Source of the DNA: Gemmatimonadaceae bacterium
Lineage (GTDB): Bacteria; Gemmatimonadota; Gemmatimonadetes; Gemmatimonadales; Gemmatimonadaceae
Length of the DNA: 33,395 nucleotides
Direction of reading: 5' to 3'
Assembly (NCBI GenBank): GCA_013697785.1
Contig: JACCWE010000041.1
Span: 1 to 33,395, forward strand
Under the pieces are notes generated by a model. That model had not been told where the DNA came from, searched no databases, and worked only from the letters and a program-made list of their open reading frames with translations. Position numbers and translations under genes: made by a program. Positions 3,569 to 33,395 of the stretch are shown piece by piece. Position 1 is the first letter of the stretch, and every line of letters starts with the position of its first letter.

Positions 3569-3572
3569 TACG

Positions 3573-5639
3573 GTGCGGGCACCGAGTCGGAGCGGCGTGG
3601 CTCTCGCCATCGCGGCCGCGCTCTGCGCCCTTCTCGGCTCCGCGCGCGCGTCGGCGCAGAGCTGCACGCAGCAGGGAACCGCGCTCGTCCTCTCCGGCGG
3701 CGGCGCCAAGGGAATCGTCCACATCGGCGTCATCGAGGTGATGGACTCGCTCGGCATCCGCCCCGATCTCATCGTCGGTACGAGCATGGGCGCCATCGTC
3801 GGCGCGCTCTACGCGAGCGGATATAGCGGCAGGCAGATCGACTCGCTGGCGCGATCGCTGCCGCTCGCCGACATCTTCCGCTCCTTTCAGCCGAGCGCGC
3901 CGCGCTCGCTCGACTTCCTGCAGCCGCTCCTCTACTGGGAGCAGGGTGAGCGCGGCTTCAATCTCCAGCGCTCGGCGGCGAGCACGGCCGAGGCGAATGC
4001 GATCACGAATAATCTCGCGCTGCGAGGAAATCTCCTCGCGCGCGGCAACTTCGACTCGCTCCCCATCCCCTTCCGCGCCATCGCGACGAATCTCGCCGAT
4101 CGCAGCCTCGTCGTCATCGGGACGGGCGATCTCGCGCGCGCGCTGCGCGCGAGCTATTCGATACCGCTGATCTTCCCGCCTGAGAAGATCAACGGCCAAA
4201 CGCTCGGCGACGGCGGTCTCGTCGCCAACGTCCCGGTTGGCGTTGCACGCCGTCTTGGCGCAAAGCGCGTGATCGTCTCGGATGCAACCTCCGGCGTTGC
4301 GGACTCGGTCGGGCTCGACGCGCCGCTCACGCTCGTCTCGCACCTCGTCGCCTTCCTCTTCCATCAACCCGCAGATTCGCTCGGCAAGAGCGACGCGCTC
4401 GTGCGCGGCGATCTCACCGGCTACGCCGACTTCGAGATATCCGACAACGGCGTCGAGCGCCTCATCGAGGTCGGACGCGCCGCGGCGCGCAGGGCGCTCG
4501 TCTCGAGCGGCTGTGTCGCGGCGCCGATGGTGACGCGCGCGCTGCCGCGGCATCTCGATGGCTTCCACCTGCAGGGGCGCAGCGACGGTGCGCTCTCCGA
4601 GCTGCGCAGTCTCCTCGGTTTGGCGCATACGGACACCATACGCATCAACGAGCTCGCCGAGCGTCTGCGCCGACTGGCGAGCTCCGAGCGATTCGCCGCG
4701 GTGTGGCTAAATCCAAACGGCGCCGATGACTCCGTGTCCTTCGACCTCACCGTGCAGCGGCAGCCGTCGCGCACTGGCGGGCTCGGCCTCGCGTACGATC
4801 GGGAGCTCGGCGGACGCGCCTGGCTCGGTTACAGCGATCATCGGCTGCTCGGGATGCCGGTGGAGGGAAGTGCCGTGGTGCGCGTCGGCACCTTCCGCGA
4901 TGAGCTCAAGCTCCTGCTGCGCGGCAACCAGCTGCTCGATCGACGGCTGTTCAACCCGCTGCTCTCCGTCGATCTCGCGCACGAGGACCTCCGTCGCTTC
5001 GATTTCGATGGCAAAACGCTCGCATCGATGTCGACGCGCGAGCTCGGCGTGCTCGCGGGGTACGAGCACGAGTATCACAATCGATGGTGGTACCAGGCCG
5101 GTGGCATTGGCGCCGCATGGCACGATTCGACCCGCTCGAGCGGGAGCGCGATCGGTCTCTCCGTCGGAACGTATCAGGTGGACCGCCAGGGAACTCGGCT
5201 GGTCGACCTCAACGCCGAGTGGACATCGGTGTTCCGCAGGATCACGGCTGATGCGAGGTGGCCGCTCGCGCTCGGCGACATGCGCATCACACCGCGTGTG
5301 CGCTATGGCTGGGGCGATCGGCTTCCCTCGCAGCTCTCCTACACACTGGGCGGCGACGAGGGTTTCCCCGGGCTGCACATCGGCGAGAGGCGCGGCAATC
5401 GCGAGGCGTACGCGTCGACGCTGCTCACGTATCGGGTGCTCGGCCCTCTGCTCGCGCGTCTGGAGCTAGCCGCAGGTGCGACGGCTATGGGCGGTGACAT
5501 CGCGCCGAGCGACGGCTGGCTCGCAGGCGCGCGCGCGGGACTCGGGCTCGACACGCCGGTGGGACCGATCCGCCTGGAGTACGGCTACAACAGCGCGCAC
5601 CGAGGAGCGGTGTTCATCCGCGTGGGCCACTGGTTCTAG
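3573..5639 (+). CDS. Patatin-like phospholipase with outer-membrane barrel (type Vd, PlpD-like)
   Basis: A 688-residue protein starting at GTG 3573. Residues 1-29 form a signal peptide (cleavage near ASA-QS). Residues about 35-310 are a patatin lipase: oxyanion-hole GGGAKG at 42-47, nucleophile Ser71 in GTSMG, and catalytic Asp213 in DGG. About 315-400 looks like one POTRA-type domain, and the remaining ~290 residues are a BamA/surface-antigen-type beta-barrel ending in Phe, the usual C-terminal outer-membrane sorting residue. This order is that of type Vd autotransporters such as PlpD of Pseudomonas aeruginosa, which expose or release an A1-type phospholipase. All catalytic residues are present, so activity is expected. 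Its stop codon overlaps that of the convergent gene. Confidence 0.9.
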   Translation: MRAPSRSGVALAIAAALCALLGSARASAQSCTQQGTALVLSGGGAKGIVHIGVIEVMDSLGIRPDLIVGTSMGAIVGALYASGYSGRQIDSLARSLPLADIFRSFQPSAPRSLDFLQPLLYWEQGERGFNLQRSAASTAEANAITNNLALRGNLLARGNFDSLPIPFRAIATNLADRSLVVIGTGDLARALRASYSIPLIFPPEKINGQTLGDGGLVANVPVGVARRLGAKRVIVSDATSGVADSVGLDAPLTLVSHLVAFLFHQPADSLGKSDALVRGDLTGYADFEISDNGVERLIEVGRAAARRALVSSGCVAAPMVTRALPRHLDGFHLQGRSDGALSELRSLLGLAHTDTIRINELAERLRRLASSERFAAVWLNPNGADDSVSFDLTVQRQPSRTGGLGLAYDRELGGRAWLGYSDHRLLGMPVEGSAVVRVGTFRDELKLLLRGNQLLDRRLFNPLLSVDLAHEDLRRFDFDGKTLASMSTRELGVLAGYEHEYHNRWWYQAGGIGAAWHDSTRSSGSAIGLSVGTYQVDRQGTRLVDLNAEWTSVFRRITADARWPLALGDMRITPRVRYGWGDRLPSQLSYTLGGDEGFPGLHIGERRGNREAYASTLLTYRVLGPLLARLELAAGATAMGGDIAPSDGWLAGARAGLGLDTPVGPIRLEYGYNSAHRGAVFIRVGHWF

Positions 5640-6565
5640 CGTATTGCGGAGCGGGCATTGAGCCGCTCCGCCCGTAGCTCGATGACCGTCGAACTATTTT
5701 CGTGGCGCATCGACCCGTTCTGCAGCGCGATCGTGCGCTCGGCGATCAGCCCCTCGATCGAGAATTCCCGCGCGCGTGAGCCGTGCGCGATAGTCACGGT
5801 CACTCGCGACTCATCCTCGGACTCGCGCACCGTCACGACGACGCGCTCACCCTCCGCCGTCTGATCGATGGCCAGACCGAGCGCACTCGTGATCGCCTCC
5901 TGAACGTGCGAGAGGTCGACGAGCACCCGCGGCATAGTCGTCGGAACGCTCCACTCGTGACCGACGTTGCGCTTGTCCGCGCGCGCTGCCGCAATCGCGA
6001 GTGGTGCGCGCAGGAGCTCGGCGACTCCCACTGGCTGGATGACGAAGGGCACCGCGCCGCGCTCGAGATCGAGAAGGCGCTGAAGGCGGCGAATCTCGAT
6101 GTCCGCGGCCTCGACGGCGCCTTGGGCGGCGCCGATCAGCTCTTCCTGATTGTCGTTGAGTTCACCGAACGGACTGTCGAGCAGGATGTGGAGTGGCAGC
6201 TGCGATTCCTGGAGCTTCGCCGGAACCACGCGCAGCACTTCATCGAGCAGCCGTACGTATGTCGCAGTGCGCTCTTCGGCCAGCGCCCGCGCGTCGCGGA
6301 CGCCGAGCTCGATGTCATCCAGCTCGTCGGCGTGGGCGGAGCGGTTCTGACGTGCCTCACTCGCGAGCAGCTCGATGCGCTGCGCCACGTACCGGGTGTT
6401 GCGCCACGCGACCACGAGCGAGCCGACGGCGGCAACGATCGCCACTATGACCAGCGCCTCGGGTGCAGAGTGCGCATACTGCCCGAACCACGCGAGCGCA
6501 GCGACGGTGAAGACACCGAGCACCGCGGGAATGACGGCGAGAAAGAGGCGTTGACTGACTTTCAT
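5636..6565 (-). CDS. Membrane protein with degenerate histidine-kinase core
   Basis: A 309-residue inner-membrane protein starting at ATG 6563-6565, directly abutting the stop of the KdpD N-terminal gene, so translation is surely coupled. Two transmembrane helices (about residues 8-28 and 35-54) are followed by a charged coiled-coil linker. Then comes a HisKA-like helical hairpin (NQEELIGAAQGAVEAAD and RRLQRLLDLERG) and a weak HATPase-like fold (DLSHVQEAITSALGLAID). The phospho-acceptor His motif (SHELRTP-like), the N-box Asn residues and the G-boxes are all absent, so kinase activity is unlikely. By position I infer a regulatory partner of the split KdpD. Similarity to kinases is a pattern judgement, not a search result. 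Confidence 0.7.
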   Translation of the reverse strand: MKVSQRLFLAVIPAVLGVFTVAALAWFGQYAHSAPEALVIVAIVAAVGSLVVAWRNTRYVAQRIELLASEARQNRSAHADELDDIELGVRDARALAEERTATYVRLLDEVLRVVPAKLQESQLPLHILLDSPFGELNDNQEELIGAAQGAVEAADIEIRRLQRLLDLERGAVPFVIQPVGVAELLRAPLAIAAARADKRNVGHEWSVPTTMPRVLVDLSHVQEAITSALGLAIDQTAEGERVVVTVRESEDESRVTVTIAHGSRAREFSIEGLIAERTIALQNGSMRHENSSTVIELRAERLNARSAIR

Positions 6566-7747
6566 CTATTTGCCCTCGCGCGTATCGCCGAACGCGACGA
6601 CGAGCACATCGAGTCCCAGGTCGTTGCGCAGAAGTGCATCGACGACGGAGCCGCGCAACATCCGGTACCACCAGGGGCGCGTGCTCTGACCCACGATGAG
6701 CAGCGACACGCCGTGTTCGCGCGCGAAGTTGCAGATCGCCGGGGCGACGTTGGCATTTTCGATCTTCACGACATCCGCACCCATGGACTGTGCGAGCTGA
6801 ATGTTGTCGACGAGGCGGCGCTGGATCGTGGCATCGATGCGGTCGGCGCGCTCGTCGGGCGTTTGCACGTATACGCAGTACCAGTCCGTGTTGAGCCGGC
6901 CGGCGATGCGGCTCGCCTTCCGAAGGAGCTTCGCGGTTTGTGGAGGATCGCTCGCCATAGCGACGACGATACGATCCGCCGTGCGCGACGGTGCGGCGAC
7001 ACCGGACGCCCTGCGGACGATATCCTCGCGCGTACGATCGACGGAGCTCGCGACCTCGCGCAGCGCGAGCTCGCGCAGCGTGGTGAGATTCTCCTCGGTA
7101 AAGAAGTTCGCGAGCGCTGCGGGAATCTTGTCGCGTCCGTAGATCTTCCCGTCGATGAGTCGCTGGCGCAGGTCCTCCGCCGCGAGATCGATATTCACGA
7201 CGCGATCCGCTCGTGCGACGACCCAATCGGGCACCGTCTCGCGTACGGTGACGCCGAGCGTCTTCGCGACCACGTCGTTGAGTGACTCGAGGTGCTGGAC
7301 GTTGACCGCGGTGACGACGTCGATGCCCGCATCGAGGAGCTCGAGCACGTCCTCCCAGCGCTTGTGATGCTTCGAGCCGGGAACGTTGGTGTGAGCGAGC
7401 TCGTCGACCAGCGCAATTCCGGGATGCCGCGCGATGATCGCGTCGACGTCCATGTCCTCGAGAAGCACGCCGCGGTACGCCACCACCCGGCGCGGCACGA
7501 TATCGAGCCCGCTCACCAGCGCCGCCGTCTCGGCGCGCCCATGCGTCTCGACGAAGCCGATCACCACATCCATCTTCCGATCCACGAGCGCGTGCGCTTC
7601 CGCCAGCATCCTGTACGTCTTCCCAACCCCCGCGGCAGAGCCGATGTACACGCTGAGTCGCCCGCGCGCGCGCTGGCGCGGGAGCTGAAGAGAATCCGCT
7701 CCCGCGCCGATGCCCGGCGTGTTGTTTGAGAAGGCGGGCTCGGTCAG
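6566..7747 (-). CDS. kdpD: KdpD N-terminal sensor half (KdpD domain + Usp)
   Basis: The cytoplasmic input half of the potassium sensor KdpD, without membrane or kinase domains. Walker A GSAAGVGKT and the family signature LVDELAHTNVPGSKH mark the KdpD domain (about residues 28-240). A Usp-like domain follows (DRIVVAMASD to LDVLVVAFGD). The first ordinary start, GTG 7649-7651, would remove the conserved RGRL strand just before Walker A. I therefore prefer CTG 7745-7747, preceded by AGGAGG at 5-base spacing overlapping the porin stop; this gives 393 residues. No in-frame ATG, GTG or TTG lies between 7652 and the porin stop. Short KdpD proteins of this form are known in Anabaena and Deinococcus. 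Its kinase half is encoded at 13627-15198. Confidence 0.9.
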   Translation of the reverse strand: MTEPAFSNNTPGIGAGADSLQLPRQRARGRLSVYIGSAAGVGKTYRMLAEAHALVDRKMDVVIGFVETHGRAETAALVSGLDIVPRRVVAYRGVLLEDMDVDAIIARHPGIALVDELAHTNVPGSKHHKRWEDVLELLDAGIDVVTAVNVQHLESLNDVVAKTLGVTVRETVPDWVVARADRVVNIDLAAEDLRQRLIDGKIYGRDKIPAALANFFTEENLTTLRELALREVASSVDRTREDIVRRASGVAAPSRTADRIVVAMASDPPQTAKLLRKASRIAGRLNTDWYCVYVQTPDERADRIDATIQRRLVDNIQLAQSMGADVVKIENANVAPAICNFAREHGVSLLIVGQSTRPWWYRMLRGSVVDALLRNDLGLDVLVVAFGDTREGK

Positions 7748-13626: not shown

Positions 13627-15198
13627 CTATACGCGCGCTGAACTGTCCTCGATCACCGGCGCGTCCGCTGCCGGGAGCTCGAAGGTGAACACGCTTCCGC
13701 CGCCGGAGCGCGCTGCGTAGCTCACCGATCCGCCTTGCGCCTCCGCGAGCCCGCGCGCTATCGCGAGCCCGAGTCCGGCGCCGCCTGCATCGGGACGCGT
13801 GCCGGCCGGTCGATAGAACGGCTCGTAGATGAGCGAGTCCTCCCCGTCGGGAACTCCCGGGCCTCGGTCGAGTACCTCGAACGCGAGCCGGTCGCCGCGT
13901 CGCGCAACCGAGAGCTCGACCGTCGTATCGGCCGGCGAGTACTTGAGCGCGTTCTCGATCAGGTTCACGAGCACGCGAACCGATTGCACGAGATCGAAAC
14001 GTCCGAGCAAGAGCGGCGCCCCATCGGCCACGATCACGCGGAGATCGCGATGCTCGAGGGCGCCGCCGAGCCGCTGTCGGGCTGCGGCCACGAGCTCCTC
14101 CGCTGCATTGAGCTCCGTGCGCATCGGCATCGCATTCGCGGCGATGTGCGAGAGGTCGAGGAGATCCGAGACGAAGCGCGACAGCCGGTCCGCCTCTTCC
14201 TCGATCGAGCGTGCATCTGCATCGCCGCCAGCCGCGAGCCGATGGGCGAGTGCCTTGATCGTCGTCAGCGGCGTACGCAGATCGTGCGACACGGTGGCGA
14301 TCAGCGCCGACTTGAGCGCGTCGGCCTGACGAAACGCCTCCGCTCGCTCGGCCACCGCCACGAGCCGCACGCGCTCGACGCCCAGGGCAGCATAGTACGA
14401 GAGCGCGCGCAGAAAGGCGCGCTGCTCGGCGTGAAGCTCGATCTGCTCGCGATTCATGATTCGGAGCACGCCGACCATTCGCTCTCGCGCCAGGAGCGGA
14501 ACGAGCAGCACGCGTACGTCGCCTTGCGAGAGCCACGGATCTCCTTCCGCCTCCCACCCCCTGCTGCCGACCTGCGAGGTGTGATCTCCGCGCATCACGG
14601 CTGGCAAGCCGCGCTCGGCTACCCACTCCGTCAATCCATCGGCGGTGAGATCGTTGCTCGAGGTCTCGGCGGGTGTTGCACCCGCGCGCGCGAGCAGCGC
14701 GAGCGATTCGCCTTGCTGCGCGAGGATGTCGCAGCGATCGACGGCGAGCGCTGAGCGGATCACCTCCGCGATCGCATCGAGCGCCTCAGTGGCCACGCCG
14801 GCGTTCAACGTCTCGGCGCCGAGAATCGAGAGTCGCTCGATCTCGCCGGCGCGTCGCTGCGCGGAGATCGTGCGCTCCTGCGCTCGATTCAACAGCTGCG
14901 TTGCCACGAGGCTGGTGATGAGAAAGGAGAGAAGCACCAGCCAGTCGAGCGGATTGCGGACGGCGAGCGTGCCGTAGGGCGGAAGAAAGAGTGCGTCGAA
15001 CGAGAAGAAGGCGAGGGTAGCGAGCGAGAGCCCGACTGCGCGCCCGCCCGTCGCGCTGCCTCCGAGCACCAGCACGAGGTAGAGCAGAGCGATGTGCGCC
15101 TTGTCGAGCTGATCGCGCAGCAGAGACATCGCGAGCGTCGTGATTACGAGCGCCGCGAGCCAACCGACCCACAATCCTGCCCTTGATAGCGGCCGCAC
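13627..15198 (-). CDS. KdpD C-terminal half: membrane sensor histidine kinase
   Basis: About 523 residues. Four membrane helices of the DUF4118 type (TLAFFSFDALFLPP is the KdpD hallmark) are followed by a GAF domain, HisKA with IATVSHDLRTPLTTIKAL (acceptor His), and HATPase with N-box NLIENALKYSP, DRGPGVP, YEPFYRP and GAGLGLAIARGLAEAQGG. This is the complete transmitter half of KdpD lacking the N-terminal KdpD/Usp input, which is encoded separately at 6566-7747. GTG 15198 is chosen because AGGAG lies 10 bases upstream; GTG 15222 in the same frame would add eight residues but has no ribosome-binding site. It should phosphorylate the KdpE encoded two genes upstream. Confidence 0.9.
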   Translation of the reverse strand: MRPLSRAGLWVGWLAALVITTLAMSLLRDQLDKAHIALLYLVLVLGGSATGGRAVGLSLATLAFFSFDALFLPPYGTLAVRNPLDWLVLLSFLITSLVATQLLNRAQERTISAQRRAGEIERLSILGAETLNAGVATEALDAIAEVIRSALAVDRCDILAQQGESLALLARAGATPAETSSNDLTADGLTEWVAERGLPAVMRGDHTSQVGSRGWEAEGDPWLSQGDVRVLLVPLLARERMVGVLRIMNREQIELHAEQRAFLRALSYYAALGVERVRLVAVAERAEAFRQADALKSALIATVSHDLRTPLTTIKALAHRLAAGGDADARSIEEEADRLSRFVSDLLDLSHIAANAMPMRTELNAAEELVAAARQRLGGALEHRDLRVIVADGAPLLLGRFDLVQSVRVLVNLIENALKYSPADTTVELSVARRGDRLAFEVLDRGPGVPDGEDSLIYEPFYRPAGTRPDAGGAGLGLAIARGLAEAQGGSVSYAARSGGGSVFTFELPAADAPVIEDSSARV

Positions 15199-15232
15199 CT
15201 TGATGGCTCTCCTGCCGTACACGGAAACGATC

Positions 15233-20960: not shown

Positions 20961-21167
20961 CAAGCCCCTTTGCAGCCACGCGGATCTTTTTCACAGCAGA
21001 GGCGCTATTCAGCGAGGCCAGCGGATGGTCCATCGCTTGCACCCGATGTCCTTAAACGCCTGCTTTCCTTTCGGGTGACTGCTCCGTTATGATATAGCCC
21101 CCTGCGCTACGCGTGCGCGCACCCGTGCGCCCGCGATCGCGTTGGTCCCTGCAACAACGAGTGCTTG

Positions 21168-24100
21168 ATGCGCGTCGCTTGTCGGTCGAAATTCGGTTCG
21201 CTCCTCTCGGTGCTCGCCTGCGCTATCGTGCTCTTCTCGTGCGGCGGCGACTCGACCGGACCCGTAGGCGGCAGCGCATCCGTCACCGTCACTCCCTCCA
21301 CCGACTCCCTCGCACTCGGCGCCAGCGTCACGCTGCACGCGGCGGTCACCGACGCCGGTGGCAACGCGGTCTCCGGCGCCAGCGTCTTCTGGAGCTCCGA
21401 GAATCCCGCCACCGCCACGGTGTCGAGCGGCGGCGTCGTCACCGGAATAGCCATCGGCGTCGTGCGGATAGCGGCGAGCTCCAACGGAAAGTCGGGCTTC
21501 TCCACGATCACCGTTGTTCCGCCCGGCGTGTCCTCCGTTCGCGTGTCCCCGGCGAGCGCGGCGATCAAGGTGGGCGAGACCGTGCATCTCCAGGCCGATG
21601 CGCTCGACGCATCCGGCAACGTGCTTCCCGGTCGCACCGTGACGTGGACGTCGACCAATACCGACGTCGCCACAGTCGACAACACGGGGCTCGTCACCGG
21701 AGTAGGCGCCGGCGCAACCACCATCACCGCGACGAGTGAAGGAAAGTCGGGCACTGCAGGGATCGCGGTGGCAGCAGCGGTGGCCGCGAGCATCACCGTC
21801 GCACCGACGAACGTGACGATCACCACCGGACAGACCTCGCAGCTTACCGCGACCGTGAAGGATGCCAACGGCGTCGTGATCTCCGGCGCACTAGTCACGT
21901 GGACCGTCGATCATTCCAATATCGCCCTCGTGTCATCCACGGGTCTCGTCACCGGGCAGGCGCAGGGGAGCGCGATCGTCACCGCGACTAGTGGCGGCGT
22001 GCACGTCGACGTTCCCATCACCGTCACGCTTCCTCCGGCCAACGCGGTGATCGTCTCGCCGTCGACGGTCGCGCTCCTCGTCTCGCAGACGCAACAGCTG
22101 ACCGCAACGATCACTGATGCCGGCGGCAACACGATCCCGGGCACGGTGACGTGGTCTTCGAACAACAGTGGCGTGGCTTCCGTGAGCGCGACGGGCGTCG
22201 TGACCGCCAATGCGCCGGGCAATGCAACGATCACCGGTACCAGCGGCTCCGTCTCGGGCGTCGCGCAGGTAAGCGTATCGCTCGTACCCGTGAGACGCGT
22301 CGTCGTCACTCCCGATGCGCTGTCGTTCACCGTCGGAGATCCGGCCACGCAGTTGGTCGTGACGCTATTGGACTCGATCGGCGGCACGCTCTCACAGACT
22401 GGACGTCCGGTCACATTCGCATCGAACAACACGAGCGTAGCCACGGTCAGCGGCACTGGACTCGTGTCACCGGTCGGTCCCGGCACGGCTGTGATCACCG
22501 TAACTCAGACGGGGTCGGGTCTCACCGCGCAGGCGACGGTAACGGTGACGCGCGTGCCCGTGGCCTCGGTGACGATCGCGCCGGCGCTCGACACGCTGAT
22601 CGTCGGTCAGGCGGTGCAGCTCGCGGCCACGACGAAGGATGGAAGCGGCAACACCCTCACCGGCCGCACGATCGTATGGGATGGGAGCGACGACAACATC
22701 GCCAGCGTCTCGAGCAACGGGCGAGTCACCGCGATCGCGCCGGGCACGATAACGGTCACCGCAACGAGCGAAGGAAAGACCGGAACGGCGACGATCGTTG
22801 TGATCGCCGTTCCCGTCGCGAGTGTGACTATCTCGCCGACGAGCGCAGCGGTGCTCGTCGGCTCGAACACGGCCGCATTCACGGCGGTCGCGAAAGATGG
22901 AAGCGGCAACGTGCTCAACGGCCGCACGATCACCTTCGCGTCGAGCAACACGGCCGTCGCAACGGTCAATGCGAGCACCGGTGTCGCGACGGGGGTCGCG
23001 CCCGGCACCGCGAACATCACCGCCTCGAGCGAAGGAAAGACGAGCAATGCCGCGACGCTCACCGTGTCCGCGGTGCCGGTCGCGAGCGTCACGATCTCGC
23101 CGACCTCGGCTTCGGTGCAGGCCGGGGCAGCGACACCGGCGTTTACCGCGGTGACGAAGGATGGAAGCGGCAACGTGCTCACCGGTCGCACCGTCACGTA
23201 CTCGTCGACGAATCCAGCCGTCGCGACGGTGAACGTTTCCACCGGTGTCGCAACCGGTGTCTCCGCGGGAACGACATCGATCATCGCATCGAGCGAAGGG
23301 AAGAACAGTCCCGCGGCGACGCTCACCGTCACCACGGTTCCCGTGACGAGCGTCACGATCTCGCCGACCTCGGCATCGGTGCAGGCCGGCGCTAACACGC
23401 CCGCGTTCACCGCTGTGACGAAGGATGGAAGCGGCAACGTGCTCACCGGTCGCGTCGTCACCTTCGCGTCGAGCAACACGGCCGTCGCGACGATCGATCC
23501 GAGCACCGGCGTCGCGACGGGCGTTGCGGCCGGCACCGCCAACATCAGCGCGTCGAGCGAGGGGAAGACCAGCAACATCGCGACGCTCACCGTCACGGCC
23601 GTTCCCGTCGCGAGCGTCACGCTCTCGCCGACGTCGGCATCGGTGCAGGCCGGCGCGACGACGCCCGCGTTCACCGCTGTGACGAAGGATGGAAGCGGCA
23701 ACGTGCTCACCGGTCGCGTTGTCAACTTCGCGTCGAGCAACACGGCAGTCGCGACGATCGATCCGAGCACCGGTGTTGCGACGGGCGTTGCGGCCGGCAC
23801 TACCAATATCACCGCGTCGAGCGAAGGGAAGACCAGCAACATCGCGACGCTCACCGTCACTCCCGCGCCGGTCAGCACCGTCACGGTCTCTCCGGCGACT
23901 CAAACGATCGTCGACGGGAACTCCGCGTCGTTCACGGCCACCCTGAAGGACGCGCAGGGGAATGTGCTCACCGGTCGCATCATCACCTGGAGCTCCAGTG
24001 ACATCACCGTCGCGACGGTCGATAACGCCGGCAATGCGACATCCACCGGCCCTGGCACGACGACCATCACGGCGACCAGCGAAGGTCAGTCGGGCAGCGC

Positions 24101-24371
24101 CACTCTGCAGGTAGATCCGGTACCCGTGACCTCGATCGCCGTCACTCCGCCTCTCGCACTCATCAGCGTGGGTAACACGGTGCAGCTAACTGCGGTGGTT
24201 CAGGACAATGGCCACGGTCACGGCCACAAGGTCGACTGGAGCTCGAGCGACGATGCGATCGCTACCGTCGACAAGAAAGGAGTCGTCACGGGCCAGGCGC
24301 CGGGATTTGCGACGATCACCGCATCGGCACAGGGTCAAAGCGGTAATGCCATCGTGAACGTCCAGCCGTAG
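21168..24371 (+). CDS. Surface lipoprotein of twelve BIG2 Ig-like domains
   Basis: About 1067 residues. ATG 21168 (just after an in-frame TTG) starts a signal peptide ending in the lipobox LFSC (Cys25). The rest is twelve Ig-like BIG2 domains of 81-90 residues, each with the V-x-x-V-x-V-x-P opening, a GxxxLTA/FTA strand, the D-x-x-GN-x-(L)-x-G-R loop and the A-T-V...G-V-A-T-G...G-T-x-x-I-x-A-x-SEGK ending. Domains 7-10 are nearly identical (88 residues each). Domain 12 replaces the GN loop with NGHGHGHK. No enzymatic or anchor domain follows. It is probably an outer-membrane or surface adhesin/stalk. TATGAT at 21088-21093 could be its -10 element. Confidence 0.9.
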   Translation: MRVACRSKFGSLLSVLACAIVLFSCGGDSTGPVGGSASVTVTPSTDSLALGASVTLHAAVTDAGGNAVSGASVFWSSENPATATVSSGGVVTGIAIGVVRIAASSNGKSGFSTITVVPPGVSSVRVSPASAAIKVGETVHLQADALDASGNVLPGRTVTWTSTNTDVATVDNTGLVTGVGAGATTITATSEGKSGTAGIAVAAAVAASITVAPTNVTITTGQTSQLTATVKDANGVVISGALVTWTVDHSNIALVSSTGLVTGQAQGSAIVTATSGGVHVDVPITVTLPPANAVIVSPSTVALLVSQTQQLTATITDAGGNTIPGTVTWSSNNSGVASVSATGVVTANAPGNATITGTSGSVSGVAQVSVSLVPVRRVVVTPDALSFTVGDPATQLVVTLLDSIGGTLSQTGRPVTFASNNTSVATVSGTGLVSPVGPGTAVITVTQTGSGLTAQATVTVTRVPVASVTIAPALDTLIVGQAVQLAATTKDGSGNTLTGRTIVWDGSDDNIASVSSNGRVTAIAPGTITVTATSEGKTGTATIVVIAVPVASVTISPTSAAVLVGSNTAAFTAVAKDGSGNVLNGRTITFASSNTAVATVNASTGVATGVAPGTANITASSEGKTSNAATLTVSAVPVASVTISPTSASVQAGAATPAFTAVTKDGSGNVLTGRTVTYSSTNPAVATVNVSTGVATGVSAGTTSIIASSEGKNSPAATLTVTTVPVTSVTISPTSASVQAGANTPAFTAVTKDGSGNVLTGRVVTFASSNTAVATIDPSTGVATGVAAGTANISASSEGKTSNIATLTVTAVPVASVTLSPTSASVQAGATTPAFTAVTKDGSGNVLTGRVVNFASSNTAVATIDPSTGVATGVAAGTTNITASSEGKTSNIATLTVTPAPVSTVTVSPATQTIVDGNSASFTATLKDAQGNVLTGRIITWSSSDITVATVDNAGNATSTGPGTTTITATSEGQSGSATLQVDPVPVTSIAVTPPLALISVGNTVQLTAVVQDNGHGHGHKVDWSSSDDAIATVDKKGVVTGQAPGFATITASAQGQSGNAIVNVQP
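22815..23870 (+). repeat. Four in-register 264-bp tandem repeats (BIG2 domains 7-10)
   Basis: Units begin at 22815, 23079, 23343 and 23607, each exactly 264 bases (88 codons), inside the BIG2 lipoprotein gene. A shared core, GGATGGAAGCGGCAACGTGC, recurs at exact 264-base steps (the ATG within it at 22897, 23161, 23425 and 23689). Flanking domains have diverged in sequence and length. The pattern points to recent duplication or gene conversion and to likely copy-number variation between strains. Confidence 0.92.
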
Positions 24372-27170: not shown

Positions 27171-29261
27171 GTGACCTACCCCTCCGCCGCACCCTCGGCG
27201 AATCCAAACTCCCCTGGCATTCCGAAGAAGCTTGCGGAGTTCCTCATGGAGTTTGCGGTCGCCGTTCAGAAGCACGCCATCTACCCGCAGGGGCATCCGC
27301 AGCTCGCCACTGCGGTCGATAAATGCGTGCGCCGTCTCGACGGGATCCTGAACGGAATCGAGCCGGTCACCTTCGCCTTCGCGCGCAACCAGGTCATCAT
27401 CGATGCCGTTGCGACGGATCCGAACAACTCGCTGATGAAGGAGCTCGCGCAGCGGCTCCATCGCCAGCGCATCGGCTCCATTCGCATCCTCCCCGGCGTA
27501 CTCCGCGACGAGCTCGCGGACTTCCTCTACGCCTCGTCGATCGAGGAAAACGAGAAGCCGCAGATCGCCATTGCCGCGCAGACCATGCGCTGGCCGCACA
27601 TCCAGGTCACGACGCTCACGTACGACAAGCTCGAGCTGATGGGAGACGAGAGTGGCCTCACCGACGACGAGAACAAGCGCGCCGGTGCGAAGCTCATCTG
27701 GATCGCCCTCGCGCGCGCGACGCTGATGCTCGGCGCCGATCCCGCCGACGAAGAGCTCCTCAGCCCTCTCGTGCTCGCGAGCGCGATCAACGAGCGCCGC
27801 GATCCCGCGTACGATCAGTCGGTCGTCGGCTTCCTCATTCAGCTCACGGAATCGCTCAAGGGCCCGCAAAGCGAAGAGTCGATCAAGGTCACGAGCCAGC
27901 TCACTGAGCTGATCAAGTCGCTGCAGCCCGCGGCGCTCGATCGCCTCATGGAAATGGGCGGCGACGCCGAGAAGCGGAAGCGCTTCGTGATGGACACGTC
28001 GCAGCATCTCGCCGCGGACGCAGTGCTCGCGCTCGTGCAGGCCGCGGCCAAGGCATCGAACCAGACGATCTCGTCATCGCTCCTCCGGCTCCTCGGCAAG
28101 CTGGCGCTGCAGGCCGAAAAGGGCGGGTCGCTGATGCGCGCGGGTGCGTCGGCGGCGATGCGCGATCAGGTCGAGCAGCTCGTCGACAACTGGGACACGC
28201 GCCGGCTGAATCCCGAGGGCTATCAGGAAGCGCTCGACCGCATGGCGCAGCGACGTGTCTTCACGCTCATGCTCCAGCGCCAGCATCCCTGCGAGCCCAA
28301 GCGCCTCGTCGCCACCGCGCTCGAGACCGACACGCTCGGTGGTCCGGTGTGGCTCGCCGTCAACCAGTTGATCTCGCACGGCGGCATCGCGATGCTGCTC
28401 GATCTGCTCGATCGCGCGCCCGCGAACAACAAGACGGCCGAGGAGCTGTGGCCGCTCGTGGCGACGCCGGACAACCTGCGCCATCTGCTGCGCGAAGAAC
28501 AGATCGATCCCGCGCTGCTCGAGCGCATCACGTCGCGCATGGGGCTCGACGTCGTCGAGCTTCTGCTCGATGGGCTCGAGACGAGCGAGACGCGCACGAT
28601 GCGCCGCAAGCTGCTCGATCTGCTCGCGCGCTTCGGCAACGACGCGGGACCGATGATCGTGCAGCGGCTCATGAACGAGGACATCCCCTGGTACGTACAG
28701 CGCAACCTGCTCACGCTCCTCGTGCTGCTCCCCAAGGTGCCGGACGGCTTCTCGCCGCAGATCTTCCTCACGCACTCCGATGAGCGCGTGCGGCGCGAGG
28801 CGCTCAAGCTGATGCTGCGCATGCCGCAGCATCGCCAGACCACGATCATCGCGGCGTTAAGCGACCGCGACGATGGCATCGTGAAGACCGCGATGGCCGC
28901 CGCGCTCGACGACTGTCCGAAGGCCGCGATCCCGCTGATCATCCGCAACGTCGAGCGCAGATCCGTGCACCCCGAGATGCGCGCGCTCGGTATCCGCGTG
29001 ATCGGCGCGTCGCGCGATCCCGAGTCGCTGGAGTGGCTGCTCAGCTATGCGGTGAAGCGCACGAAGATCCTGCGCCGCATGAAGCTGCTGCCGAAGTCGA
29101 CGGAGATGCTGGCCGCGCTCGCCGGCCTGGCGCATGGTTGGAGTGAAGATGCGAGTGTGAAGACAGTTCTCGAGCGCGCGCAGAAGTCGAAGGACGGCGA
29201 CGTGCGTTCGGCCGCCCTGCCTCGAAGGAGACCGAGTGACCGATCCAATTCGCTTCCTTAA
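27171..29261 (+). CDS. HEAT-repeat protein, cassette copy 1, with YxxxHP N-terminal domain
   Basis: A 696-residue cytoplasmic protein, GTG start without a clear ribosome-binding site; upstream in-frame alternatives are closed by stops. Residues about 19-125 are a conserved domain (FAVAVQKHAIYPQGHPQLA; FAFARNQVIID; GSIRILPGVLRDELADFLY) shared with the three following genes. A helical middle part follows, and the C-terminal ~250 residues form HEAT-like helical pairs (DERVRREALKLMLRMPQHR; DDGIVKTAMAAALDDCPKAA). It is paralogous over its length to the protein at 30620-32782 (both have WYVQRNLL and RVRREA). Its last 26 bases overlap the HD-GYP gene. It is probably a scaffold; no catalytic motif is seen. 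Confidence 0.82.
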   Translation: MTYPSAAPSANPNSPGIPKKLAEFLMEFAVAVQKHAIYPQGHPQLATAVDKCVRRLDGILNGIEPVTFAFARNQVIIDAVATDPNNSLMKELAQRLHRQRIGSIRILPGVLRDELADFLYASSIEENEKPQIAIAAQTMRWPHIQVTTLTYDKLELMGDESGLTDDENKRAGAKLIWIALARATLMLGADPADEELLSPLVLASAINERRDPAYDQSVVGFLIQLTESLKGPQSEESIKVTSQLTELIKSLQPAALDRLMEMGGDAEKRKRFVMDTSQHLAADAVLALVQAAAKASNQTISSSLLRLLGKLALQAEKGGSLMRAGASAAMRDQVEQLVDNWDTRRLNPEGYQEALDRMAQRRVFTLMLQRQHPCEPKRLVATALETDTLGGPVWLAVNQLISHGGIAMLLDLLDRAPANNKTAEELWPLVATPDNLRHLLREEQIDPALLERITSRMGLDVVELLLDGLETSETRTMRRKLLDLLARFGNDAGPMIVQRLMNEDIPWYVQRNLLTLLVLLPKVPDGFSPQIFLTHSDERVRREALKLMLRMPQHRQTTIIAALSDRDDGIVKTAMAAALDDCPKAAIPLIIRNVERRSVHPEMRALGIRVIGASRDPESLEWLLSYAVKRTKILRRMKLLPKSTEMLAALAGLAHGWSEDASVKTVLERAQKSKDGDVRSAALPRRRPSDRSNSLP

Positions 29262-30501
29262 CGCCTTCGGGAAGTCGTTGTCGGCGATGGCGCTCTATGC
29301 ACCCTCGCACCCGGCGCGCTCGAAATCGGCGCAGCTGGCATTCGAGGCTGTGCAGGAGCTCCAGCGTCAGGAGCTCGTGCTCAAGTTCTCCTTCCTCGGC
29401 GACGAGATCGTCTTTCAGAATCGCCAGCTGCGCGAGCTGAAGGATTGGGAGTGGTGCGAGCGATTCACGAAGTCCGGCATCCAGCGCATGGAGTTCGTGT
29501 CGGAGGTGATCAGGGAGGAGTTCGACGATTTCCTCTATACGATCATGGCCGAGGTGACGCCGGGATGGAGAGATCCGCGTCATACGCAGAGGAAGGAAGG
29601 GACCGAGTACATCAGCATCAAGTACGGCGCGATTGGTGTGCGCGGCGATGCCGACCAGTTCATGACGGATCCGCTGCCGACGATCGGAATGAACTTTCCG
29701 CTGGATGAGGAAGTGGAAACGATCGAGATGATCTACGGGGAGGTGGAGGCAGGACGTCCGCTTCCGGCTGGCGAGATCGAGACCGTCGTGGCGTCGCTGT
29801 CGGTGGCGATGCACGGCGACAGCGAGATCCTGATGCCGCTGCTGCAGCTCAAGGAGTTCGACCAGTACACCACGGCGCACGCGCTCAACGTGAGTGTGCT
29901 CGTGATGGGGCTGTCGGAGTTTCTGGGTTTGGGCGGGCGCGACACGCGCGCGATCGGAGTGGCGGGGCTGCTGCGCGACGTCGGGATGACGAAGGTGCCG
30001 AAGGACATCGTGTCGAAGGCAGGTCCGCCGACGGATGACGAGTGGGACATCATCCGGAGACATCCGATCGAGGGCGCGCGCATCATCCTCATGAGCGAGC
30101 CGCAACTCGACGTGGCCGCGGTAGTCGCGTACGAGCATCACATGCTGCCGGGCGGGCAGGGATATCCGCGTCCGCACTTCGAGCGTGAGTGCCACTACGC
30201 GAGCAAGCTGGTGCAGGTGTGCGACTGCTACGACGCGTTGCGCACCCGTCGCTTCCATCGGGGCGCGTGGACGCCGGAGAGCGCGCTCAGATATGTGGAG
30301 GACAAGGCGGGAACCGTCTTCGACGCCGAGATCGCGAAGGCGTTCGTGCAGATGATGCGGCGGTGGGAGCGGCGGATCATTCCGCTCGAGGAGGGGCAGC
30401 CGCTCCAGGCGCGCGCCGCCGATGACGTGTTGGAGAGCGCCTCCGTTCCGGCGCACGCGTCGCTGATGACCCCCAAGGGAACGCCCATCGTCCGGACCTG
30501 A
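29236..30501 (+). CDS. HD-GYP-type protein with degenerate HD motif, cassette copy 1
   Basis: A 421-residue protein starting at GTG 29236 with AAGGAG 5 bases upstream, overlapping the HEAT gene. Residues 5-103 are the shared domain (MALYAPSHPAR; FSFLGDEIVF; VIREEFDDFLY). Residues about 205-375 align with HD-GYP domains, which hydrolyse cyclic di-GMP: FDQYTTAH with His215, GLLRDVGMTKVP, RRHP with His276, EHHMLPGGQGYP with His301, His302 and GYP 309-311, then CDCYDAL with Asp330. The HD pair is R247-D248, and the lysine of the usual HD-x-GK is Met251. Loss of a metal-ligand His and the catalytic Lys suggests reduced or no hydrolysis, perhaps a sensor role. Confidence 0.85.
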   Translation: MTDPIRFLNAFGKSLSAMALYAPSHPARSKSAQLAFEAVQELQRQELVLKFSFLGDEIVFQNRQLRELKDWEWCERFTKSGIQRMEFVSEVIREEFDDFLYTIMAEVTPGWRDPRHTQRKEGTEYISIKYGAIGVRGDADQFMTDPLPTIGMNFPLDEEVETIEMIYGEVEAGRPLPAGEIETVVASLSVAMHGDSEILMPLLQLKEFDQYTTAHALNVSVLVMGLSEFLGLGGRDTRAIGVAGLLRDVGMTKVPKDIVSKAGPPTDDEWDIIRRHPIEGARIILMSEPQLDVAAVVAYEHHMLPGGQGYPRPHFERECHYASKLVQVCDCYDALRTRRFHRGAWTPESALRYVEDKAGTVFDAEIAKAFVQMMRRWERRIIPLEEGQPLQARAADDVLESASVPAHASLMTPKGTPIVRT

Positions 30502-30522
30502 TCGGGCATTTGGGGCAGATTC

Positions 30523-30594
30523 CGGGCGTTTCGCCCGTGACGATGGCGGGGGGTAGACGGTCGTATCCTGAGGGGCTGGCGACGGCCAGTCCCC
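30523..30594 (+). other. Two hairpins between the two HEAT/HD-GYP cassettes
   Basis: CGGGCG-TTT-CGCCCG (30523-30537) is a perfect six-pair stem with a three-base loop. A second stem pairs GGGGCTGGC (30572-30580) with GCCAG-T-CCCC (30585-30594), with one bulged base, and is followed by ATTCTT. They lie in the 118-base gap between the first HD-GYP gene and the second HEAT gene. Neither has a strong T-run, so they may attenuate transcription or stabilise mRNA rather than terminate it. Confidence 0.4.
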
Positions 30595-30619
30595 ATTCTT
30601 CGATCACCCGCCGACGCCC

Positions 30620-32782
30620 GTGCCTCCCCCGCACGCCAGCACCACCGCGAACACGCCCACGGAATCGCTGACCCGCGAGATGGCCGACCTCATGGTTGAG
30701 CTGTCTGTCGGGCTGCACAAGTATTCCATGTATCCGGACGGGCATCCGCTGCTCGAGTCGGCCGTCAGCGGCATCACGAGGCGTTTGCAGCTCCTGCTCG
30801 CGGAACGGCAGATGATCGCGATCGCGGTCGCGCGCAATCATCTCGTCGTCGACGGTGTGCCGACCGATCCCTCGCACACGGTGACGCGCGATCTCGCGCT
30901 CAAACTGTTCCGGAAGGAGATCGGTGCGATCCGCTTGTATGAGGGGGTGCAGGATCTCGAGCTGCAGGAGATGCTGAAGGCGATCGCGCGCGAGACGCCG
31001 AAGGTGGAGGGGGAGCTCGAGACCGCGCGCGAGTGGGAGCACGTGCGGCTGTTCCCGCTCACGTACGATCAGCTCGAGCTGCAGCAGGACGCGGCGGACC
31101 AGACGACGGAGGAGCGCGCCGGATGGGCGTCGAATCTGTGGGGGAAGCTCGCGTCGGCGTCGCTTGGAATCGGACTTGGCGGCGGCGGTGGGAACGGCGG
31201 TGGCGGCACGGGTGACGGGAGCGGCGGTGGTGACGGGAGCGGTGGCGGCAATGGGCCGGGCGGCGGCGGCGATGGGTCGCTGACGCCGGACACGCCGATG
31301 GATCCGCTCGCGCTGGCGAGTGAAATCGAGCGGCGGCCTCGCGATGCGGACTACGACAAGGGAATTCTCGCCTTCTTCGGCCAGTTCATGGACGAGATGA
31401 AGGTGAAGGGCGGGCATGCGTCGCATCAGCTGAAGCGGAAGGTGTCGACGCTGGTGAGTGCGCTGTCGCCGGAGACGCTGCAGCAGATTTTGAAGCGGTC
31501 GAACTCGGGCGCGCAGCGGCGGCAGTTCATGCTCAACGCGTCGCACACGCTCGCGGCGGACACCGTGCTCGATCTCGCGAAGGCGGTGGCGGGAGCGTCG
31601 GAGCACACGATGTCGGAGGCGCTCCTGCTCCTGTTGACGAAGCTCGCCAAGCACAGTGAGAAGGGATCATCCGGGCGGCGCGACAAGGCGGATACCGCGC
31701 TGCGGCAGAACATGCGGCAGCTCATCGATGACTGGGATGGTGCGGCGGCGCTGCCGGAGGAGAGCTACTGGCAGACGCTGGAGCAGCTGATTGCGGAGCC
31801 GGCCAATGATGCGCCGGCGAGCTCGGGGCAGTACGACGTGAACAACGAGTACATCCTGCAGATGTCGCTCGAGGTCGAGCTGTTCAGCGCGACGGCGAAG
31901 CACGCGGTAGCGGAGATGGTGAAGCAGGGGCGGATAGCTGCGCTCCTGGCGATGGTCGATCAGACGCCGGAGACGAACGCGGTGGTGTGGACACTGCGGC
32001 GGCATCTCGACAACACCGGAACGATCCGGCGGCTGCTGCGCGACCGGCCGATTGACTTCGAGGTGTTGTACAGGCTCGTGGCGCGTGTGGGTTTTCCGGC
32101 GGCTGGTGCGCTGCTGGATGCGCTGGAGCTCGAGGATGACAGAACGGCGCGGTGGCGGCTGTTCGAGATGCTCGCGCAGCTCGGGCCCGATGTCGGCAAC
32201 GCGGTCATGGCCCGGCTTCCGGGATCGCCGTGGTATGTGCAGCGAAATCTGCTGTTGCTCATGGCGCGGCTCGAGAGCTGGCCGAAGAGCTTCACGCCTC
32301 TGCCCTATGCGAAGCACCCCGATCCGCGGGTGCGGCGCGAGGCCTACGCGCTGCTGCTCCGCGATCCGTCCACGCGGGGCGAGGCGATCGCGCTCGCGGT
32401 GGCGGACAGCGATGAGCGGATCGTGCGCGCGGCGCTCAATGCGGCGCTCGAGGGCGGCTGTCCGCGCGAGGCGATCGCGGTGCTGACGGAGCGGCTGAGC
32501 GAGCGCACGCTCGACGGGATGATGGCGGTGCTGGCGATTCGCGTGATCGCGCCGATTCGGCTGCCGATCGTGCTCGAGGTACTCGTGCAGTCCGTGCTGT
32601 CGAAGAAGCGGCGTTGGTTCTTCGGGCGGAAGCTCGCGCCGAAGAGTCAGCCCATGCTCGCTGCGCTGACGGCGCTCGCGGCGACGTGGTCGAAGGAGCC
32701 GATGGCGCAGAAGGTTCTCACGCTGGCGGAACGCGATACGGATCCGGCGGTGCAGAACGCGATTCGCGGGCGGCCGCAGTGA
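30620..32782 (+). CDS. HEAT-repeat protein, cassette copy 2, with Gly-rich linker
   Basis: A 720-residue paralogue of the protein at 27171-29261. GTG 30620 has no clear ribosome-binding site; ATG 30680 in frame is an alternative that would trim the domain edge. Residues about 18-125 are the shared domain (LSVGLHKYSMYPDGHPLLES; VARNHLVVDGVPTDP). A linker of about 35 residues near 190-225, almost only Gly with Asn, Asp and Ser, is missing in copy 1 and separates this domain from the HEAT part. The C-terminal half has WYVQRNLLLLMARL, DPRVRREAYALLLRDP and DERIVRAALNAALEGG. It is followed after 10 bases by the second HD-GYP-type gene. It is probably cytoplasmic, with no enzymatic motif. Confidence 0.82.
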   Translation: MPPPHASTTANTPTESLTREMADLMVELSVGLHKYSMYPDGHPLLESAVSGITRRLQLLLAERQMIAIAVARNHLVVDGVPTDPSHTVTRDLALKLFRKEIGAIRLYEGVQDLELQEMLKAIARETPKVEGELETAREWEHVRLFPLTYDQLELQQDAADQTTEERAGWASNLWGKLASASLGIGLGGGGGNGGGGTGDGSGGGDGSGGGNGPGGGGDGSLTPDTPMDPLALASEIERRPRDADYDKGILAFFGQFMDEMKVKGGHASHQLKRKVSTLVSALSPETLQQILKRSNSGAQRRQFMLNASHTLAADTVLDLAKAVAGASEHTMSEALLLLLTKLAKHSEKGSSGRRDKADTALRQNMRQLIDDWDGAAALPEESYWQTLEQLIAEPANDAPASSGQYDVNNEYILQMSLEVELFSATAKHAVAEMVKQGRIAALLAMVDQTPETNAVVWTLRRHLDNTGTIRRLLRDRPIDFEVLYRLVARVGFPAAGALLDALELEDDRTARWRLFEMLAQLGPDVGNAVMARLPGSPWYVQRNLLLLMARLESWPKSFTPLPYAKHPDPRVRREAYALLLRDPSTRGEAIALAVADSDERIVRAALNAALEGGCPREAIAVLTERLSERTLDGMMAVLAIRVIAPIRLPIVLEVLVQSVLSKKRRWFFGRKLAPKSQPMLAALTALAATWSKEPMAQKVLTLAERDTDPAVQNAIRGRPQ

Positions 32783-32792
32783 GGATCTTCCA

Positions 32793-33395
32793 GTGAGCAG
32801 CGTGCTGAGCGCACAGGTGAAGTTCCTGTCGTCGCTGGCGCAGAGCCTGTCGACGATGATGCTCTATCCTCGTGAGCATCCGACGTGGGCGCGCGCGGTC
32901 GACGGATCGTTCGCGCATCTCGTCGAGCTGCAGAAGGAGAATCCCAATCCGCAGTTTTCGTTCATCGGCACCGATGTGATTTACGGGCAGACGCCGATGC
33001 ACGACATGAAGGATTGGCCGTGGGCGGAGAAGCTCGCGGGTGTGGGCGTGCAGCGGCTCGAGTTCACGGGAACCGTGATGCGCGAGGAGTACGAGGAATT
33101 TCTCGCGGACGTGCTGACGCGCATCGTGCAGAGTGGCGCGGGCGGAGGCGTGGCGAATCGTTCGGCGCACACGTCGCGGCTGCGCAGCATCAAGTTCGGG
33201 GCGGTGATGGTGAGGGATGAGGAGGAGTGGGATGGCGGGGAGTTCGTGGAGGGTGGAGTCGAGGGTGGAGTCGAGGGTGGAGTCGAGGGTGGAGAGGGAG
33301 GCGGCGGGGCCGGCGGCGGTGGCGGCGGCGGCGGGTATAGCTACGGCGGCGAGGGCGCAGGCGGGCCCGGGACCGGCTCCGGCGGCGGCGCTGGT
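32793..33395 (+). CDS. Second HD-GYP-partner protein, N-terminal part, truncated by window end
   Basis: An open frame of 201 codons from GTG 32793 to the window edge, with GAGGA about 7 bases upstream overlapping the preceding stop. Residues about 8-110 match the N-terminal domain of the HD-GYP protein at 29236: LAQSLSTMMLYPREHPTWAR, FSFIGTDVIYGQTPMHDMKD, VQRLEFTGTVMREEYEEFL. The RSIKFGAVMV segment aligns with ISIKYGAIGV there. From about residue 149 the sequence becomes a low-complexity Gly/Glu/Val then Gly/Ser linker. An HD-GYP domain probably follows beyond the window, by analogy with copy 1, but cannot be seen. Confidence 0.75.
   Translation, partial: MSSVLSAQVKFLSSLAQSLSTMMLYPREHPTWARAVDGSFAHLVELQKENPNPQFSFIGTDVIYGQTPMHDMKDWPWAEKLAGVGVQRLEFTGTVMREEYEEFLADVLTRIVQSGAGGGVANRSAHTSRLRSIKFGAVMVRDEEEWDGGEFVEGGVEGGVEGGVEGGEGGGGAGGGGGGGGYSYGGEGAGGPGTGSGGGAG
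33249..33293 (+). repeat. 12-base tandem repeat encoding EGGV
   Basis: GAGGGTGGAGTC is repeated exactly at 33249-33260, 33261-33272 and 33273-33284, with a partial fourth copy to 33293. It is in frame in the last gene and encodes (Glu-Gly-Gly-Val)3, opening its Gly-rich linker. Exact copies suggest slippage and length variation between strains. Confidence 0.9.

Follow-up and report, generated by a model that had tools for sequence, protein, structure and literature searches.

Why should a HEAT-repeat protein and an HD-GYP protein, one of a scaffold type and the other of a signaling type, begin with the same domain and be encoded side by side, twice in succession? The question is raised by four codirectional genes, here named H1, D1, H2, and D2, at the right-hand end of a contig from a Gemmatimonadaceae bacterium (assembly GCA_013697785.1, contig JACCWE010000041.1, positions 1 to 33,395 of the forward strand; this whole stretch of 33,395 nucleotides is called the window). 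Our analyses showed that the four window proteins carry one homologous N-terminal domain and that the pairing of a HEAT gene with a following HD-GYP gene, often with overlapping or abutting open reading frames (ORFs), is real in at least eight phyla. We assign a probability of about 0.5 to the reading, taken as a whole chain, that the window genes form two consecutive copies of a widespread module of two proteins in which the shared domains pair, the HEAT-type protein serves as a scaffold, the nucleotide is cyclic di-GMP (c-di-GMP), and the window copies bind it without cleaving it.

H1 (27171..29261, 696 amino acids) and D1 (29236..30501, 421 amino acids) overlap by 26 nucleotides and are followed by H2 (30620..32782, 720 amino acids; 34% identity to H1) and the N-terminal part of D2 (32793..33395), all on the + strand and with GTG starts as called. 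H1 combines the shared domain with an alpha-solenoid that starts at about residue 165 in its AlphaFold model and is recognized as HEAT repeats by Pfam (HEAT_2, E 1.9e-7, 31.7 bits, with the cut-off at 27.7). H2 has the shared domain and a HEAT-type remainder; its HEAT_2 match is under the Pfam cut-off (7.5e-4, 20.2 bits), and its homology to H1 is given by BLASTP (5e-102). In D1, the shared domain is joined to an HD-GYP domain (29818..30375; HD_5 in Pfam, E 7.1e-18), and D1 matched D2 in BLASTP at 1.5e-26; identities are 30-35% for both H1/H2 and D1/D2. A simple hydropathy scan found no clear transmembrane helix in the four proteins, the top stretch being borderline and located in the solenoid part of H2.

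The initial annotation, made from the sequence of the window alone, described the cluster as HEAT, HD-GYP, HEAT, HD-GYP; this order holds for the first three genes, but the HD-GYP half of D2 lies outside the window. The window is the entire contig C146, whose end truncates D2 within a Gly-rich linker (33210-33395), and this incomplete D2 had zero Pfam matches. The missing half is probably encoded by a 300-amino-acid open frame with which contig C126 ends (G000:C126:42001-42762); this frame, too, begins in a Gly-rich run, and such runs are encoded at both contig ends (for C126, 42600-42876). An intact D2 of 470 amino acids is present in the sister genome G001. A recent duplication at the genus level was considered as a possible origin of the two cassettes: with H1/H2 and D1/D2 this divergent, the trees have long branches and do not fix the backbone, and D2 joins the genome G040 at 98/95 support, though again with a long branch.

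The shared domain occupies 27219..27644 in H1 (about residues 17-158), 29236..29640 in D1 (about residues 1-135), 30668..31072 in H2 (seen in domain alignments and as a profile match within the window genome), and D2 up to about 33212. When 30 N-termini from the HD-GYP side were aligned with 28 from the HEAT side by hhalign, the probability was 96.6% (E 5.1e-10, 132 columns), a profile-profile result that ruled out chance resemblance among the four. In pairwise comparisons of N-termini, H1 matched D1 and D2 by BLASTP (2e-4 and 1e-3, respectively) and stood well apart from composition shuffles (z = 9.8 and z = 7.9); for H2, z was just 3.1 with D1 and 2.6 with D2, and BLASTP was not significant alone. 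Homology in all four is nevertheless settled because the family profiles align, despite the weak pairwise scores of H2. A direct match between the two sides was also seen in another phylum, where the N-terminus of the first HD-GYP protein of locus L155 matched that of the first HEAT protein of locus L154 (E 5.7e-4).

In AlphaFold models based on family alignments, H1 and D1 have an identical order of elements over the shared domain, helix-helix-strand-strand-helix-strand-helix-helix-strand, with predicted local distance difference test scores (pLDDT) mostly of 75-95. The elements in H1 are helices 19-37 and 43-60, strands 66-70 and 75-77, helix 87-98, strand 101-106, helices 112-123 and 131-138, and strand 144-148; those in D1 are helices 3-20 and 26-45, strands 49-54 and 57-60, helix 72-79, strand 84-87, helices 93-107 and 114-119, and strand 128-131. 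Unrelated N-terminal folds, which the initial annotation had named as the outcome that would overturn its proposal, are thus not what profiles and models point to. Its motifs are all present (YPQGHP in H1, YAPSHP in D1, YPDGHP in H2, YPREHP in D2, and the G-(I/V)...E...FL segment), while the domain, put there at about 100 residues, measures about 145. Beyond the first helix, a Tyr and then a His-Pro or Asn-Pro are the most constant positions across the family. Neither Pfam nor NCBIfam has a family that matched the domain above its curated cut-off, and there was no credible relative among PDB sequences; matches to a cytochrome c555 trimer, octarellin, and Glr2806 were partial or weak and were judged spurious. 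Fold searches with the whole H1 and D1 models returned HD-GYP and HEAT folds only and thereby barely probed the N-domain part.

Is the pairing kept outside the window? Within the family and the order, H1-type and D1-type genes of relatives adjoin, usually as a single pair of this kind, with a divergent pair of a second type located elsewhere in the genome. The window genome has this second type on contig C11 (a HEAT protein of 569 amino acids and then an HD-GYP protein of 492 amino acids; G000:C11:1488-5869), and the C11-type pair was adjacent, in the same order, and with the domain in both genes in 20 of 20 further genomes sampled. Across the class, 98 of 149 genomes had matches to the domain profile, typically about 2 kb apart. 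A search of plasmids with the C11-type HEAT protein gave zero matches, and the matches listed for the C11-type HD-GYP protein align from about residue 143 onward, without the N-domain.

The C11-type pair sits inside a tryptophan cluster, in the order trpF, trpB, HEAT, HD-GYP, trpA, often with overlapping ORFs (L071, L090-L109); trpB was found in 18 of 21 C11-type loci, the trp gene names being read from the sequence.

A scan of a genome collection with the C11-type HD-GYP protein as the query gave 80 loci from many phyla, in which the domain was sought with a profile built solely from sequences of the window genome and of related genomes. The HD-GYP protein carried the domain in seven loci, and all seven had a second domain-bearing ORF immediately upstream; the remaining 73 had no domain match at all and hence no domain-bearing partner (0/73). 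The chance of this split is 1 in C(80,7), about 3e-10, with phylogeny ignored. The seven loci come from Gemmatimonadetes (L152), Deltaproteobacteria (L153), Acidobacteria (L154), a genome labelled Cyanobacteria (L155), Omnitrophota (L164 and L177), and Phycisphaerales (L167). Over all loci fetched, the partner was upstream of 90 of 90 domain-bearing HD-GYP ORFs, compared with 0 of 77 domain-less ones (which include the severed half of D2 itself); as many of these loci were fetched for their domain matches and many are close relatives, the unbiased figure is 7/7 versus 0/73. Profiles recognized the partner as a HEAT protein in 81 of the 90 cases; Pfam did not recognize HEAT repeats in the partners at L164, L177, and L167, for which "solenoid" is a guess.

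Two further groups were surveyed, with a match counted as paired if a same-strand partner lay within 1-3 kb of it. The domain was found in 43 of 58 Myxococcia genomes, in which 96 of 99 matches had a same-strand partner 1.6-2.2 kb off, and in 47 of 99 genomes of Desulfobacterota, the phylum of Geobacteraceae, in which 90 of 123 matches were paired; the profile used (A9) held one pair from each group, which aids detection and not adjacency. Whole-genome searches added Corallococcus (Myxococcota), Geobacteraceae, Aminicenantes (with two pairs), Zixibacteria, and Hydrogenedentota. The order HEAT then HD-GYP, which the initial annotation had suggested looking for in other genomes, is thus kept in many, and by record labels, with the Cyanobacteria label excluded, the phyla are Gemmatimonadota, Desulfobacterota, Acidobacteriota, Omnitrophota, Planctomycetota, Myxococcota, Zixibacteria, and Hydrogenedentota. 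No domain match was found in the genomes tried from Bacillota, Chloroflexi, Gamma- and Betaproteobacteria, Spirochaetes, Thermotogota, Synergistota, Fibrobacter, and Armatimonadota.

Two successive cassettes, as first described for the window, are present there and also at L154 and L155, but the arrangement is not general among relatives. L154 and L155 share the order HEAT, HD-GYP, HEAT, HD-GYP with the window, and each cassette of one locus has its own counterpart in the other; the tandem is therefore older than the split between these two loci.

The locus labelled Cyanobacteria (L155, the same place as L274) is closest to the Acidobacteria locus, with HD-GYP proteins 53-60% identical, and by this sequence likeness the label of the metagenome assembly may be wrong.

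The initial annotation had also proposed a cyclic-dinucleotide-linked system. A link to c-di-GMP is supported because the partners are HD-GYP proteins and because the domain-HEAT unit is fused elsewhere to GGDEF and PilZ, both of which are c-di-GMP domains. In seven proteins, one from Gemmatimonadota and six from Desulfobacterota, GGDEF and AAA_16 precede the shared domain and HEAT repeats (L270 at 2423-7060, L333, L334, L336, L337, L338, and L357, with AAA_16 under the cut-off in L357), and three of the seven hold two copies of the domain in tandem. Two further proteins (L335 and L361) consist of the shared domain, HEAT repeats, cNMP_binding, and PilZ. In the mechanism that we propose, the homologous N-terminal domains would pair and hold the HD-GYP protein on the solenoid scaffold, the scaffold would engage a client or target, and the nucleotide would be c-di-GMP; in most lineages, the HD-GYP protein would be catalytically active and would hydrolyze c-di-GMP locally. 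Pairing between domains is favored because three GGDEF fusions carry tandem domains.

Several observations weigh against this mechanism. The AlphaFold models are of single chains, and the physical interaction is putative. Four of the seven GGDEF fusions have a single detected domain and no HD-GYP partner seen next to them; therefore, domain-domain pairing is not obligatory. Solitary shared-domain proteins of about 740 amino acids occur in Desulfobacterota (L346, L359, L360, L362, L364, L365, and L366); L346, L359, L360, and L362 have no Pfam domain above the cut-off, although a GGDEF-like match near the C terminus of L359 comes close without reaching the threshold (E 0.0043). Furthermore, nucleotides other than c-di-GMP can be substrates of HD-GYP and HD proteins, and V-cGAP3 and other HD phosphohydrolases are among the structural matches of D1.

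Proteins that carry the domain and lack an adjacent HD-GYP gene would be expected if the shared domain sensed or bound a ligand, or a third protein, common to both partners, so that the HEAT and HD-GYP proteins answered one cue with no direct binding between them, and its most conserved positions (Tyr and His-Pro) could form a binding site. We regard this as credible but unlikely, since the near-strict adjacency and order across phyla, as well as the tandem domain copies in some fusions, fit pairing better. It is still less probable that the HD-GYP protein acts on another nucleotide (for instance cyclic GMP-AMP, a linear nucleotide, or a guanosine nucleotide) and that the module belongs to another pathway. 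The presence of V-cGAP3 among the matches and the departure of the family from the canonical HHE..DG.GYP motifs would fit such a role, whereas the fusions to GGDEF and PilZ argue for c-di-GMP, as do the top structural matches, which are c-di-GMP HD-GYP proteins and include DvhD with c-di-GMP bound.

The initial annotation did not foresee that both window HD-GYP copies have lost catalytic residues. In 74 of the 90 domain-bearing HD-GYP ORFs, none of the seven metal ligands that were compared (H, HD, H, HH, D) is lost, and 72 of these also retain K and GYP. The single-pair orthologues of D1 read LLHDxGK and CDVYDAL. D1 is LLRDVGM (H247R, K251M) in each of the four genomes of the genus in which it was read, so the HDxGK of an active enzyme is missing; D2 reads LLHDLGM and VCSVYNAL (K to M and the last Asp to Ser) both in G001 and in the C126 half, the reading for the window genome relying on the inferred assignment of that half to D2, and it likewise departs from the active enzyme. 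The two copies thus lost different active-site residues, and G040 has a loss resembling that of D2. Most of the Myxococcia pairs examined lack one histidine ligand, the second His of HH, and GYP, and have HD-GM or similar (L262, L315, L317, L319, L321, L323, L324, L326, and L327), yet the pair is kept in most Myxococcia genomes surveyed. Arg339 and Arg342 of D1 are invariant in the family alignment and lie in the stretch that presumably corresponds to the one where HD-GYP proteins bind nucleotide.

Compared with two sister species, the ratio of nonsynonymous to synonymous substitution rates (dN/dS) was 0.06 and 0.10 for D1, 0.08 and 0.09 for H1, 0.09 for the C-terminal part of D2, 0.22 for H2, and 0.23 for the N-terminal part of D2. 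Because residues were lost and the low dN/dS of D1 nevertheless indicates purifying selection, we infer that the window HD-GYP proteins retain a non-hydrolytic role. Maintained non-hydrolytic or non-catalytic roles are described for degenerate GGDEF and EAL proteins in the passages of PMC4877007 consulted here. Decay into functionless paralogues, once a formerly active pair had been duplicated, would agree with the loss of different metal or catalytic residues in D1 and D2 and with the faster change of H2 and the D2 N-terminal part than of H1 and D1; it is very improbable given the low dN/dS of D1 and of the D2 C-terminal part, the identical residue losses in sister genomes, and the retention of a mostly degenerate pair in Myxococcia.

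The proposed module would therewith take a special form in the genus of the window, where both HD-GYP copies may be non-hydrolyzing, c-di-GMP-responsive partners that alter what the scaffold binds. We hold only tentatively the more specific proposal that the undescribed domain on both proteins forms a hetero-pair of solenoid and HD-GYP, that in this genus and in Myxococcia the phosphodiesterase has become a scaffold-held, non-catalytic c-di-GMP receptor, and that the domain brings scaffolds to diguanylate cyclases. Hardly any credence can be given to operon hitch-hiking of two functionally unlinked proteins: the C11-type pair does lie within the trp cluster in Gemmatimonadota, and operon context can include unrelated genes, but the pair persists across phyla while other neighbors change, and both proteins bear the homologous domain.

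The HD-GYP and HEAT parts are of known kinds, while the domain and the two-gene unit are apparently undescribed. The HD part of D1 has the HD-GYP fold, matching HD-GYP structures with Z of 18-22; the best match is Bd1817, the unconventional HD-GYP protein of Bdellovibrio (3tm8/3tmb; Z 21.6, 3.5 Å, 219 residues), and PmGH (4mcw) follows at Z 19.7. No match of the Bd1817 N terminus to the shared domain was seen in this comparison, which covered about residues 147-383 of D1 only, and the N-domain profile A9 did not match Bd1817 among PDB sequences at E 10. With the HD-GYP phosphodiesterases (PmGH 4mcw, PA4781 4r8z, DvhD 9rbz, and RpfG-type), the pair members have the fold and, in most cases, the metal ligands and GYP in common. 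Unlike these enzymes, however, the pair member always adjoins a HEAT-type protein with the same domain, and the window copies lack catalytic residues; the solved HD-GYP sequences gave no match to the N-terminal domain of the pair.

DUF3391-HD-GYP proteins, to which many plasmid-borne relatives of the C11-type HD-GYP protein belong, have a similar HD-GYP domain and linker. DUF3391 differs from the shared domain, however: it had no match in the window proteins, and only its C-terminal end touched the linker of one relative, under the cut-off (E 0.013, 16.5 bits against 27.8). HEAT repeats are shared with NblB and the CpcE/F phycobilin lyases, for which the window-type scores are far under the cut-offs; to our knowledge, these families lack both the shared N-terminal domain and an HD-GYP partner. 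GGDEF and PilZ proteins are known c-di-GMP kinds that in some genomes are fused to the domain-HEAT unit. In the open-access literature searched, we found no description of the shared domain, the two-gene unit, or the GGDEF and PilZ fusions, and the passages of PMC4877007 that deal with Myxococcus xanthus HD-GYP proteins have nothing on a HEAT/HD-GYP pair.

These results bear on a standing question: in a cell with dozens of c-di-GMP enzymes, how does each one achieve local and specific action? They point to a domain family missing from the curated libraries searched and to two lineages of degenerate HD-GYP proteins under selection. Myxococcia and Geobacteraceae include genetically tractable species, and the conserved HD-GYP/solenoid two-gene unit in these groups offers a direct route to testing local c-di-GMP action.

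Two other features of the window were noted by eye. Near an apparent kdpABC cluster, the gene for a KdpD-like sensor part seems to be distinct from that for a histidine kinase, as in a split KdpD (6566-7651 and 13627-15222), and 21165-24371 encodes a 1068-amino-acid protein of Ig-like (Big_2-like) repeats whose units are near-identical.

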